Made by a program: the position numbers and the translations under genes
The notes under the pieces: generated by a model
What the model saw: only the letters and a program-made list of their open reading frames with translations
The model's database searches: none
What the model was told of the DNA's origin: nothing
Shown here: positions 7,687 through 12,102 of the stretch, piece after piece
Numbering within the stretch: the first letter of the stretch is position 1
Layout: each line of letters starts with the position of its first letter
From: Roseospira goensis
GTDB lineage: Bacteria; Pseudomonadota; Alphaproteobacteria; Rhodospirillales; Rhodospirillaceae
Length of the DNA stretch: 39,169 nt
Direction: 5' to 3'
NCBI RefSeq assembly: GCF_014197795.1
Contig: NZ_JACIGI010000033.1
Location: 1 to 39,169, forward strand

Positions 7687-8331
7687 TCAGGCGCGCACCA
7701 CACCGTGGGCGCGCAGCATCTCCAGCAAGGGCAGCAGCGGCAGACCCAGGATGGTGAAGACGTCGCCGGTGACGCGCGCGAACAGGTGCGCTCCCAGGCC
7801 CTCAAGCTGGTAGCCGCCCACGCTGTGCGACACCGCGTCGCCCATGGCGTCCAGGTAGCACGCCAGGAACGCGTCCGAAAAGGGCCGCATGGTCAGGCGG
7901 GCGGTGTCGGCGGCATGCCAGATCCGCGTGCCGTCGCGCACCAGCACGGCAACGCTGACCAGGCGGTGGGTGGTGCCGCGCAGGTGGCGCAACTGGGCCT
8001 CGGCGGCCGCCCGGTCGGCGGGTTTTTCCAGCCAGTCGCTCGGTCCCCTGTCCCCCGTCTCCAGAATCTGGTCCGCCCCCAGCACCAGCGCGCCGGGATG
8101 GCGGCGGGCGACCCGCATCGCCTTCAGCTCCGCCAGGGTCTCGGCGGCGCGGGCCGCGTCGGCCCCGTCCGCCCGCAGGGACTCGCGCACCGCCGCCTCG
8201 TCCACCGCCGGGGTCTCGATCGCGGCCAGCGGCACCCCGGCGGCCTCCAGCAGACTGCGGCGGGTGGCGCTGCCGGACGCCAGCACCAGCGGCGGGGCGT
8301 CGCCCGATCCGGCCAGGGGGACCGCCGTCAC
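7687..8331 (-). CDS. maf: Maf-family nucleotide pyrophosphatase
   Basis: Hydrolyses non-canonical or methylated nucleoside triphosphates to monophosphates (house-cleaning enzyme). The N-terminal LASGSATRRSLLE (18-30) and the catalytic-site aspartate in VLGADQIL (D87) match the family, as does SVGGYQLEGLGAHLF in the C-terminal part. At 214 aa the length is normal, though HGVVRA at the end is slightly extended. The start ATG (8331) overlaps the ppsR stop by ATGA, indicating coupling. The subtype (pyrimidine or m7GTP) cannot be decided by eye. Confidence 0.93.
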   Translation of the reverse strand: MTAVPLAGSGDAPPLVLASGSATRRSLLEAAGVPLAAIETPAVDEAAVRESLRADGADAARAAETLAELKAMRVARRHPGALVLGADQILETGDRGPSDWLEKPADRAAAEAQLRHLRGTTHRLVSVAVLVRDGTRIWHAADTARLTMRPFSDAFLACYLDAMGDAVSHSVGGYQLEGLGAHLFARVTGDVFTILGLPLLPLLEMLRAHGVVRA

Positions 8332-9155
8332 CAGAACACCCCCTTGTTGCGCTGGATGCGCTGGATGATGGCGGCCGCCACCTCCTCGATCGACTTGCGG
8401 GTGACGTCGATCACCGGCCAGCCGCGCCGCGCGAACAGCCGGCGCGCCCGGGCCACCTCGCCTCGCACCAGTTCCTCGTTGGCGTAGTCGCTGTCGACCG
8501 GCTCGTGCATCACCCGCAGGCGGTTGCGGCGCAGGTCGGACAGACTCTTGGGCTCACGCGTCAGGCCGATCACCAGCGGCTGGCCGCCCGTCAACTCCAG
8601 CACCGGATCCGGCACCGGAATGCCCGGCACCAGCGGGATGTTGACCGCCTTGTAGCCCTTGTTGGCCAGGTACATGCAGGTCGGCGTCTTGGACGTTCGC
8701 GACACCCCCAGGACGATCACATCCGCATCCTGCAACCCATCCAGGAGCTGCCCGTCGTCGTGCGCGAGGGTGTAGTGGATGGCGTCGATGCGCCGGAAAT
8801 AGGCGTCATCGAGGGTGTGCTGGCGCCCGGGATCGGTGCGGAACTCGGCCTGGAAGTAGTGCTTGAGGGTGTCCATGACCGGATCAAGCACCGAGACGCA
8901 GGGCACGCCCAGCTCGCGACAGGCGTCCTCCAGCACGGCCCGCACCTCTGGATCAACCAGGGTGAACAGCACAACCCCAGGATTGTTCTCGATGCCCTCC
9001 AGCAGGCGCCGGATCTGGCCCGGCGTGCGCACCAGCCACCACAGGTGCTGATGGACGCGCGGAATCGAATCGAACTGCACCAGACAGGCGCGCACGGCGC
9101 TGCTGACCGTCTCGCCGGTGGCGTCGGACACGAGGTGAAGATGATGCTCGGTCAC
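8328..9155 (-). CDS. ppsR: PEP synthase/PPDK regulatory kinase-pyrophosphorylase (DUF299)
   Basis: A bifunctional enzyme that inactivates PEP synthase or pyruvate phosphate dikinase by ADP-dependent phosphorylation and reactivates it by Pi-dependent removal. The P-loop GVSRTSKT (150-157) and the start EHHLHLVSDATGETV match the family. The true start is the GTG at 9155, giving 275 aa, behind AAAGGGTG; the open frame continues upstream only as non-coding sequence of the origin region. This is the gene called RP001 in older origin literature. The name clash with the photosynthesis repressor PpsR is accidental: this protein has no PAS or HTH domain. It heads the minus-strand operon leaving the origin. 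Confidence 0.93.
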   Translation of the reverse strand: MTEHHLHLVSDATGETVSSAVRACLVQFDSIPRVHQHLWWLVRTPGQIRRLLEGIENNPGVVLFTLVDPEVRAVLEDACRELGVPCVSVLDPVMDTLKHYFQAEFRTDPGRQHTLDDAYFRRIDAIHYTLAHDDGQLLDGLQDADVIVLGVSRTSKTPTCMYLANKGYKAVNIPLVPGIPVPDPVLELTGGQPLVIGLTREPKSLSDLRRNRLRVMHEPVDSDYANEELVRGEVARARRLFARRGWPVIDVTRKSIEEVAAAIIQRIQRNKGVFW

Positions 9156-9299
9156 GGCGGCACCCTTTAGGCGAAGGGGCGGGAGGGACCCGGTCGCGCC
9201 GCGGCGCGGCCCGGGCAACGGATGGAACGCCGGCATTGGGGCGGGCTCAAGGCACCGCGGCCCGTCGGCGCAACCGGCCGACGCCGAACCGACGGGGTT

Positions 9300-9710
9300 G
9301 GCTGGGGACATCCCTGTGCAGGGCGCACGGGACAGCGGGGATAACCGGGGTCGGATCACAGGCCCCCGCTTTTTACTCCCCTTCGGTGCCGCGGTCACCC
9401 CTTCGGATATCCCCATGGGGACGGGGTTATCCCCGCCATCCGGATCCCGGGGATCGGATCCGCACCGGCGTCAGTTATCCCCAGGATCCACAGGATCAGG
9501 GCGGAGGCCGGCGAGTCCGGCGGCCGGCGGGCACCGACTCGGAGTCCGGTCGCGGAGTCGTCCCGCGCGTCGTCCCCAGGGCCGGCGCGGTCGCCGCCGC
9601 GGCCGTGCCGGTTGCGGATGGCGCTGTGGACAGCCGGGGATCCCCGTCTCGCCCCCGCCCAACAACCCCTCCATCCCTTTTCTTTATAGTCCTGACTGTT
9701 TAGAAGGAGG
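9300..9710. other. oriC: Probable chromosomal replication origin (oriC)
   Basis: The gap between divergent ppsR and hemE (9156-9788) has no credible gene. It holds 9-mers close to the DnaA box TTATCCACA: 9336-9344 (minus), 9427-9435 (plus), and a tandem pair 9475-9483 and 9484-9492 (plus); weaker ones lie at 9407-9415 and 9625-9633 (minus). An AT-rich patch (9671-9707) in otherwise GC-rich DNA is a candidate unwinding element. Four GANTC and six GATC sites cluster in the middle. In Caulobacter and Rickettsia the origin is known to lie between hemE and the RP001-type gene, exactly this arrangement. Genes on both sides are transcribed away from it. No CtrA box (TTAA-N7-TTAA) is visible. Confidence 0.78.
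9513..9559. promoter_or_regulatory. Cluster of four GANTC (CcrM-type) sites
   Basis: GANTC occurs at 9513-9517, 9536-9540, 9542-9546 and 9555-9559, four sites in 47 bp, far denser than expected at this GC content. CcrM methylates GANTC in alphaproteobacteria and marks the replication state. The cluster lies inside the proposed origin, next to the tandem DnaA-like boxes. Confidence 0.55.
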
Positions 9711-9788
9711 GGCCCCGCGCCGGCGTGCCGTGCCGCCGGCGTCGGCCCGACCTGTCTGTCCCGCCTTGCTGCCATCCGGAGTCCGCCC

Positions 9789-10853
9789 GTGTCAGACCCC
9801 CGCGTTGCCTCGTCCGAAAAACCGTTCCTGCGTACCCTGGCGGGGGAGGCGGTGTGGCCGCCGCCCGTATGGCTGATGCGGCAGGCGGGCCGCTACCTGC
9901 CCGAGTATCGCGCGACGCGGGAGACGGCGGGCGGGTTCCTCGACCTTTGCTATACGCCGGACTTCGCCATCGAGGTGACGTTGCAGCCGTTGCGCCGCTA
10001 CCGGTTCGATGCCGCGATCCTGTTTTCCGACATCCTGGTGGTGCCGCATGCCCTGGGTCAGGACGTGGCCTTCAGGGCCGGTGAGGGGCCGGTGCTGGAT
10101 GCCCTGAAGGATGAGGCCGACCTGGCGAAGCTGGACGTCGGGCGCGTGCTCGATCACATGCGTCCGGTGCTGGAGACGGTCAGCGGCCTGGCCAAGGCGA
10201 TCCCGGAGACGACGGCCCTGATCGGCTTCGCCGGGGCGCCCTGGACGGTCGCCACCTACATGATCGAGGGGGGCGGCTCGAAGGACTTCGCCACCACCAA
10301 GACCTGGGCCTACGGCCGCCCCGACCTGTTCGGCCGCCTGATCGACACCCTGGTGCAGGCCACCGGCGACTACCTGATCGCCCAGATCGACGCCGGCGCC
10401 GAGGCGGTGCAGATCTTCGACACCTGGGCCGGGGCGCTGCCCGAGGCCGAGTTCATGCGCTGGGTGGTGGAGCCCATCGGCCGCCTGACCCGACGGATCC
10501 AGACCGAGCGCCCGGGCGTACCCGTCATCGGCTTTCCGCGCGGGGCCGGGGTGCTGTATCCCACCTTCGTGCGTGAGACCGGGGTGACCGGGGTGAGCCT
10601 GGACACCAGCGTGCCCTGCGCCTGGGCGGCCGAGGCCGTGCAGCCGCTGGCCGTGACCCAGGGCAACCTGGATCCCATCCATCTGGTGGCCGGCGGCCCG
10701 GCCTTGGACGCCGCCACCGATCACGTGCTGTCCACGCTGTGCGGCCGGCGCCCCCACATCTTCAACCTGGGGCACGGCATCGTCCCGCAGACGCCGCCGG
10801 ACTCCGTCGCCCGGATGATGGAGCGCATTCGCAACGCCCCGCGGCCCGCGTAA
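9789..10853 (+). CDS. hemE: Uroporphyrinogen decarboxylase
   Basis: Decarboxylates uroporphyrinogen III to coproporphyrinogen III in haem and bacteriochlorophyll synthesis. The signature [17 protein letters not shown] (25-41) and the catalytic aspartate in FSDILVV (D81) are present, along with GFAGAPWT and FNLGHGI near the C-terminus. At 354 aa it is full length. It starts with GTG at 9789 behind a GGAG site 7 bp upstream. It is first of a hemE-hemH-hemJ cluster reading away from the origin; in Caulobacter the hemE promoter lies within the origin, so expression may be tied to initiation here too (inference). Confidence 0.96.
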
Positions 10854-10920: not shown

Positions 10921-12102
10921 ATGAGCCGACTGGCGGTCGTACTGTTCAACCTGGGTGGGCCGGACAGCCTGGACTCGGTCAAACCCTTCCTGTTCAACCT
11001 GTTCAACGACCCGGCGATCATCGGCGCACCGGCGCCGGTGCGCTGGGTGCTGGCCAAGCTGATCTCGTCGCGGCGGGCGCCGATCGCCCGCGCCATCTAC
11101 GAGCAGATCGGCGGCAAGTCGCCGCTGGTGCCGCAGACCGAGGCCCAGGCCACGGCGCTGACGGCCGCGCTGGAGGCACGCGGGGTGGCCGACGCGGTGG
11201 GCGTGTTCCTAGCGATGCGCTATTGGCATCCGATGACCCGCGCGGCGGTGGACCGGGTCAAGGCGTTCAAGCCGGACACCGTCATCCTGTTGCCGCTCTA
11301 CCCGCAGTACTCGGGCTCGACCAGCGGATCCTCGCTCACCACGTGGGTGCGGACGGCGGAGAAGCGGGGCCTGACCGCCGAGACCCACACCATCTGCTGT
11401 TACCCGACCCAGGCCGGCTTCGTCGCCGCCATGGCCCGGCTGACCCGCGAGGGGGTCGAGAAGGCGCGCGCCCACGGCCGGCCGCGGGTGCTGTTCTCGG
11501 CCCACGGGCTGCCCAAGATCAGCATCGAGAAGGGCGATCCCTACCAGAGTCAGGTGGAGATGACCGCCGCCGCCATCGTTGCGGCGATGGGGGTGCCGGA
11601 CCTCGACTGGGTGGTCTGCTACCAGAGCCGCGTGGGGCCGCTGGAGTGGATCGGCCCCGACACCGATTCCGAGATCGAACGCGCCGGCCACGACAAGGTG
11701 CCGGCGGTGGTGGTGCCGCTGGCCTTCGTCTCCGAACACTCGGAAACGCTGGTCGAACTGGATATCGAATACGGCGAGTTGGCGGAGGCGCGCGGCGTGC
11801 CCGCCTATGTGCGGGTGCCGACCGTGCAGGCCGACGCCGCCTTCATCGACGGCCTGGCCGATCTGGTGACCCGGGCGGTGCGCCCGGAGAGCGGCGACGG
11901 CTGCCTGATCGAGGCCGGACCGGCGAAGGGCCGCCTGTGCTCGCAGGTGGGCAGCCGGGTCTGCGACGCGAAATGGACGATGTGTCCGCACGTGCAATCA
12001 GAAGAAACGGATATAAGAAACAGAGATAGTAAGCGGGCAGATGAAGGGGCGCACCGGGAAAACGGGAAAACGGGAAAAGGAAACGGCGGATGGAATACCT
12101 GA
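10921..12102 (+). CDS. hemH: Ferrochelatase with an unusual C-terminal tail
   Basis: Inserts Fe2+ into protoporphyrin IX. The catalytic histidine is in LFSAHGLP (H195), and the acidic/His segment FVSEHSETL is present. Cysteines C340, C348 and C355 near the C-terminus plus C159/C160 inside could ligate a [2Fe-2S] cluster, as reported for Caulobacter ferrochelatase. After about residue 358 the protein continues with some 35 residues of lysine-, asparagine- and glycine-rich sequence encoded by AT-rich, rare-codon DNA with three tandem CGGGAAAA units, unlike the rest of the gene. This tail overlaps the hemJ start by 13 bp. Without it the protein would be of normal length. Confidence 0.94.
   Translation: MSRLAVVLFNLGGPDSLDSVKPFLFNLFNDPAIIGAPAPVRWVLAKLISSRRAPIARAIYEQIGGKSPLVPQTEAQATALTAALEARGVADAVGVFLAMRYWHPMTRAAVDRVKAFKPDTVILLPLYPQYSGSTSGSSLTTWVRTAEKRGLTAETHTICCYPTQAGFVAAMARLTREGVEKARAHGRPRVLFSAHGLPKISIEKGDPYQSQVEMTAAAIVAAMGVPDLDWVVCYQSRVGPLEWIGPDTDSEIERAGHDKVPAVVVPLAFVSEHSETLVELDIEYGELAEARGVPAYVRVPTVQADAAFIDGLADLVTRAVRPESGDGCLIEAGPAKGRLCSQVGSRVCDAKWTMCPHVQSEETDIRNRDSKRADEGAHRENGKTGKGNGGWNT
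12055..12078. repeat. Three tandem 8-bp units (CGGGAAAA)
   Basis: CGGGAAAA occurs at 12055-12062, 12063-12070 and 12071-12078, within the hemH 3' end and directly before the hemJ start, where it also supplies the purine-rich ribosome-binding region. A change of one unit would shift the hemH reading frame near its end. Confidence 0.85.

Follow-up and report, generated by a model that had tools for sequence, protein, structure and literature searches.

The gap between ppsR and hemE is very probably a chromosomal replication origin of the alphaproteobacterial Cori type, in which about ten mostly weak DnaA boxes would serve opening at an AT-rich stretch. This reading rests on the clustering of the boxes, their conservation in register, the gene context, parS-like sites nearby and a switch of GC skew at the gap in three of four relatives, and the same evidence supports the earlier sequence-only reading, which had proposed an origin between these two genes. 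The window, by which we mean the whole stretch of 39,169 nucleotides analysed, is the entire contig C33 of a 4.18-Mb genome in 81 contigs, and the result places the origin in a genome available only in that form.

The gap comprises 633 bp between ppsR (minus strand) and hemE (plus strand), both transcribed outward:

8328..9155, minus strand: ppsR, kinase/pyrophosphorylase (PF03618, Pfam E 1e-88); left flank, transcribed away from the origin
9156..9788, no strand: very probable oriC, intergenic replication origin (box cluster, conservation, GC skew in relatives)
9789..10853, plus strand: hemE, uroporphyrinogen decarboxylase (PF01208, Pfam E 2e-116); right flank, transcribed away from the origin

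Beyond ppsR the minus strand carries Maf, aroE, coaE and a dnaQ-like exonuclease, and beyond hemE the plus strand carries ferrochelatase, yebC, ruvC-ruvA-ruvB and a tolQ-like gene. The extent of the gap, its two flanking genes and the operons leading away from it had thus been read correctly from the letters, as the Pfam matches and strands show. Several ORFs of 119-221 aa overlap the gap; despite these we take it to be non-coding, because the genus alignment has many irregular gaps there. Rfam, searched with 8900-10000, gave one microRNA match at E 0.03 whose 23.8 bits fall below the gathering score of 80; we dismiss it as chance.

When compared with the classical box TTATCCACA, the gap holds no perfect 9-mer, one with at most one mismatch (at 9475) and six with at most two; the corresponding numbers for the whole window are none, one and 30. 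The hexamer TTATCC occurs three times in the window, always inside the gap (9336 on the minus strand, 9427 and 9475 on the plus strand). At these same positions stand three copies of TTATCCCC, compared to a mean of 0.01 and a highest count of 1 in 300 dinucleotide shuffles. TCCCCA is present in five copies (mean 0.55 and highest 3 in 300 such shuffles), and across the seven gaps of the genus it occurs 37 times versus 5.5 in shuffles. Genome-wide there are 27 occurrences of TTATCC[AC]C, 12 of them TTATCCCC and 15 TTATCCAC; three of the 12 copies of TTATCCCC fall in the gap, within 147 bp (0.0018 expected in 633 bp), and the genome has no other such triplet. Placing 27 sites randomly in the genome gave a triplet within 147 bp in 0 of 20,000 trials. 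These are odds that flatter TTATCCCC in that the pattern was picked after the window was seen; the conservation tests lean less on that choice. The cluster is genuine and far beyond chance. That several 9-mers of the gap resemble DnaA boxes, as had been noticed beforehand, is borne out by the shuffles, the genome-wide clustering and the conservation described below.

To follow the gap in relatives, we searched 61 genomes for hemE, of which 49 matched and 12 did not; 30 loci were fetched, our own included, leaving 19 matched ones unfetched. One locus (L031), which had no ppsR match in the 1.5 kb fetched, was excluded from all gap counts, and a set of named loci (64 gaps) was counted without L123, which is the same contig as L004. 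The divergent ppsR-hemE gap is kept in 28 of the 29 relatives fetched and in 65 of 80 named loci (the other 15 having no divergent ppsR match), and its length across relatives is 289-674 bp. Motif-free 8-mer enrichment recovered TGTCCCCA in 7/7 and TTATCCCC in 6/7 genus gaps; among the 22 other relatives it recovered TTATCCCC in 17, CCTGTGGA and TATCCACA in 16 each and TTATCCAC in 15 (shuffles 0.1-0.9 in both sets).

In the genus alignment, leaving the window itself out, we then gave each 9-mer position a score for the closeness of the six other species to TTATCC[AC]CA. The result is a ranking and not a probability, as the aligner may favour pairing like with like. The sites of the array are as follows, the first five being the top five of 1,248 positions and the next four following directly:

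9336..9344, minus strand: DnaA box TTATCCCCG; rank 1 of 1,248, best conserved of the array, visible in the family alignment too
9570..9578, plus strand: W-type box TCGTCCCCA, with TTATCCACA at the same place in the congener G004; rank 2
9303..9311, minus strand: W-type box ATGTCCCCA, TTGTCCCCA in two congeners; rank 3 of 1,248, in register
9475..9483, plus strand: DnaA box TTATCCCCA, first of a 9-bp tandem pair; rank 4, the pair being seen in the family alignment
9407..9415, plus strand: W-type box ATATCCCCA; rank 5
9416..9424, minus strand: W-type box CCGTCCCCA, back to back with 9407; rank 6
9448..9456, minus strand: box-like CGATCCCCG; rank 7
9315..9323, minus strand: degenerate box adjoining a conserved CCCTGTG block; rank 8, from the alignment
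9484..9492, plus strand: DnaA box-like GGATCCACA, second of the tandem pair; rank 9
9625..9633, minus strand: DnaA box-like CTGTCCACA (TGTGGACAG on the plus strand); rank 12, a TGTGGA block in the family alignment
9427..9435, plus strand: copy of TTATCCCCG in the window only; rank 566 of 1,248, not conserved in the genus
9638..9646, plus strand: GGATCCCCG, first box of a module beside the AT-rich patch; judged by eye from alignments and sequence

The array thus exceeds the boxes named beforehand, adding 9570, 9303 and 9407. Most boxes are in register within the genus, so that conserved 9-mers do accompany the same gene order in related genomes, with 9427 as the exception. Two arrangements had been singled out: the tandem pair at 9475-9492 is present and conserved, while the inverted pair at 9336/9427 exists as sequence and loses one member, 9427, to lack of conservation in the genus. 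On the AT-rich side, the alignment position 9636-9644 ranks 965, the box-like 9-mer sitting two bases further at 9638-9646. The second box of this module reads TTATCCACA in several relatives and is unrecognisable in the window (TCTCGCCCC, 9647-9655).

The gap's second match in its own genome (C16, 45 bp, 80%, E 6e-4) we attribute to GC-rich chance, since the matched stretch has no TTATCC, TCCACA or TCCCCA, though it overlaps the 9570 box in the query. Among the best-conserved blocks of the genus alignment is CGGTCACCCC (window 9392-9401), which is weakly DnaA-box-like and possibly a site for another protein.

An AT-rich patch had been pointed out at 9671-9707, and it is real: its best 40-mer, at 9669 with 40% GC, ranks 14 of 39,129 in the window, and it falls in a block conserved in the genus. 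Lower-GC spots exist in the window at 11993 and 21460. We assign to this block the probable unwinding region:

9660..9709, no strand: probable unwinding region with CAACAAC, a T-rich run and TGTTTAGAAGG; genus-conserved block, low-GC 40-mer

The family alignment gives the surrounding architecture. Its left part has a reverse pair, TGTGGA ... GGGGATAA; its centre has the 9-bp tandem pair TTATCCCCA-nnATCCACAGG (window 9475-9492) and then the reverse TGTGGA site (9625). Several relatives continue on the AT side with nnATCCCCG-TTATCCACAGG, AAC/CAC triplets and a T-rich run, after which the genus has TGTTTAGAAGG or TGGGTAGAAG before hemE. Tandem DnaA-box pairs, AAC/CAC triplets and the T-rich run, in that order, are parts of the hemE origin common to many of the Rhodospirillales seen. 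The heptamer CTCTAAG occurs in 27 of 65 named gaps, and in 23 of these 27 it stands 39-51 bp before hemE.

Other Rhodospirillales (28 relatives with the gap, and Magnetospirillum sulfuroxidans, L125, among the named loci) share with the window the gap itself and a mixed array of TTATCCCC and TTATCCACA, in many with a tandem pair ahead of the AT-rich stretch. They differ in their perfect boxes: TTATCCACA is found in the origin gap of 14 of the 22 relatives outside the genus versus one of the seven genus species (one-sided Fisher p 0.03, species not being independent), whereas the window has none and has lost its second box on the AT side. The Caulobacter crescentus Cori, the hemE-RP001 origin, has the same gene context as the window. 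Like Cori, the window's gap has no perfect TTATCCACA and has five W-type boxes with TCCCCA; unlike Cori, the window has no TGATCCACA G-box, and three boxes of the gap are full TTATCCCC 8-mers. A further difference lies in CtrA sites (TTAA-N7-TTAA), which number zero in the gap and zero in the 29 gaps compared; our genome has them in two places, neither of them here.

A DnaA box pair followed by DnaA-trios is published as the basal unwinding system, or BUS (PMC8287927). We searched for it as a DnaA box (at most two mismatches) with three or more NAN trios no further than 16 bp away on the unwinding side. It matched anywhere in the gap in 25 of 29 gaps versus a mean of 4.9 in 20 shuffle rounds, and in several relatives TTATCCACAGG is followed by a spacer, AAC/CAC triplets and the T-rich run. 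In the window, by contrast, just two NAN triplets (AAC AAC) follow the decayed box. The scan of its gap gave no match to the pattern on the AT-rich side and a single one at 9475, away from the AT-rich patch; on average, about one shuffled gap in six yields such a match.

By analogy with Caulobacter and other bacteria, DnaA would bind about ten boxes, most of them weak (TTATCCCC, RTCCCCA and degenerate TCCACA sites), and would assemble cooperatively towards the hemE side. It may then open the AT-rich stretch at 9660-9709, where the helicase would be loaded; the binding, the cooperativity, the loading and the exact point of opening are all modelled on those organisms.

If the gap is an origin, then GC skew should change sign across it. 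As our genome is in 81 contigs, skew was read in the window only and polarity was taken from relatives. In the window the skew is -0.030 to the left of the gap and +0.016 to its right. The cumulative curve reaches its minimum at 8742, some 400 bp from the edge of the gap, and in a 40.8-kb stretch of G052 the minimum lies 3.6 kb outside; both local readings are confounded by divergent transcription, gene orientation flipping at the gap. We sampled 20 stretches of 20 kb in each of four relatives, on one contig (G036, G052) or two (G032, G060). In G052, G032 and G060, 9/9 stretches left of the gap are skew-negative and 10/11 right of it positive. The two stretches nearest the gap read -0.070/+0.099 in G052, -0.013/+0.021 in G032 and -0.009/+0.030 in G060, the nearest left stretch in the latter two ending about 4 kb short of the gap. 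The sign switches at the gap in three of the four relatives sampled. The exception, G036, has no switch on its one contig (9/10 stretches negative on the left, 8/10 negative on the right), which counts against an origin; rearrangement is our guess for the disagreement.

Sites resembling parS lie within 16 kb of the gap in G052, G032 and G060; the three of G036 lie about 172 kb, about 178 kb and 1.4 Mb from it, and those of our own genome are on another contig, C15. Two species from a single related genus have a parS-like GTTTCACGTGAAAC within the gap (G018:C12:197164-197177 and G035:C4:281437-281450).

The origin might instead be at dnaA, as in many other bacteria, with the ppsR-hemE gap a relic. 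Three relatives' contigs begin near dnaA, a common but conventional zero, and in G060 the skew is weakly negative (-0.009) in one stretch some 109 kb beyond dnaA. However, dnaA lies about 411, 200 and 118 kb beyond the gap in G052, G032 and G060, and the skew is already positive on the way there, in 5/5, 4/4 and 3/3 stretches respectively, and mostly positive after it. Nor does TTATCC[AC]C occur near dnaA on our own contig C5, where the dnaA domains are at 11.4-12.4 kb and the sites at 68.9 and 176.9 kb. We find this placement scarcely credible.

Perfect copies of TTATCCACA do exist elsewhere in the genus. Each genome has 5-10, for a sum of 50 over seven genomes versus 64 for the reversed control (8 versus 10 in our own). 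As the box is no commoner than its reversed control, it is recurrence at the same genes, and not number, that speaks for function. We looked at 48 of the 50, leaving out our own copies on C56 and C59, and 21 of the 50 recur at three loci:

G000:C11:125989-126330 (L035/L036), and L250, L253, L258, L261, L263, L267: perfect TTATCCACA at the nrdJ-like locus
G000:C36:22791 (L041), and L233, L234, L235, L244, L260: perfect TTATCCACA at the uvrC locus
G000:C26:4144-4164 (L038), and L242, L246, L251, L262: boxes at the second reductase

All seven genomes have the box some 180-245 bp ahead of the aligned N-terminus of a ribonucleotide reductase of the nrdJ-like kind (PF02867/PF00317); our own genome and G005 carry another copy within the 5' coding part. 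The box precedes uvrC in six of seven, not being found for G002, and a second, class II B12-dependent reductase (PF08471 in L262) in five of seven. At this last locus our genome has an inverted pair, TTATCCACA-GGA-TGTGGATAA, about 217 bp from the gene start, and the four congeners have single boxes. In E. coli, nrdAB and uvrB are known to be under DnaA control, and control of reductase genes has been proposed in Caulobacter (PMC8203912). The recurrence at the reductase and uvrC loci, a comparative pattern, makes it very likely that DnaA of this genus still reads the classical box, the origin being left with weak sites.

These boxes also bear on the idea that those of the gap let DnaA control the promoters of both hemE and ppsR, or titrate DnaA, and do not form an origin. 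Any gap between two divergent gene starts is a promoter region, and perfect boxes elsewhere in the genus do sit upstream of genes (nrdJ, uvrC). Nevertheless, a promoter alone would not be expected to show the skew switch in three of four relatives, the neighbouring parS and a gap conserved at 289-674 bp, and we judge this account highly improbable. Promoter use of the gap in addition to its role as origin is likely.

The contrast between the absence of perfect boxes from the origin in six of seven species and their retention at the reductase and uvrC genes is mildly new. A tentative and quite possibly mistaken extension is that the origin of this genus shed its strong boxes and runs on weak W-type ones, perfect TTATCCACA being kept at the reductases and uvrC. 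DnaA might then set the genes for dNTP supply and repair first, the origin firing only at a high DnaA level, with the order of affinities built into the genome. If the genus truly runs on weak boxes, it would be a natural test of how DnaA affinity orders cell-cycle events.

The G-boxes and W-boxes of Caulobacter were reportedly first described by Taylor et al. in 2011. In Cori, G-boxes TGATCCACA stand alongside W-boxes TCCCCA, the latter a very weak DnaA site acting with stronger boxes (PMC4285127, PMC4468827). Within TTATCCCC stands TCCCC, which an A after it completes to the W-box; the gap's unusual boxes would, by this comparison, be of that already described weak type. The element occurs in 16 of the 64 named gaps, of which many carry Rhizobiales titles, with 21 copies versus 1.1 in shuffles.

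This bears on the suggestion that high genomic GC selected for TTATCCCC as a new DnaA box specific to the lineage and read by a changed DnaA. It is true that TTATCCCC or TTGTCCCC is found in the window and its high-GC congeners, that only one genus gap in seven has TTATCCACA, and that our DnaA has a single K-for-R difference in the helix-turn-helix region. However, TTATCCCC is common in relatives outside the genus and contains the Caulobacter W-box core, so the box is not particular to the lineage. Adaptation to high GC is not borne out either: outside the genus, TTATCCCC is present in 6/9 gaps below 50% GC and 11/13 at or above it (Fisher p 0.6). The recurrence of perfect TTATCCACA at the same genes elsewhere in the genus also speaks against a new box. 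We consider the suggestion very unlikely; judged by its distribution, TTATCCCC is a real, enriched element, neither lineage-specific nor tied to high GC. Collectively, the gap is an ordinary, well-supported Cori-type origin, for which the sequence-only reading had the right location and the wrong explanation of the box variant. In the open-access literature searched we found nothing on TTATCCCCA with DnaA, nor on oriC or DnaA boxes in Rhodospirillales.

A changed DnaA we reject as an explanation, as the key DNA-reading segments are ordinary: in domain IV, RPRQ and GGRDHTTV are identical to E. coli 1J1V. The one difference in the helix-turn-helix region is a K (TQKSLPEIG) against R in the 29 other DnaA sequences compared, at a position that varies: E. 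coli has H there and the next PDB match has S. In our own dnaA (L232, C5), the frame upstream of the conserved N-terminus holds short repeats of the DVGQDGGQDVGQD type.
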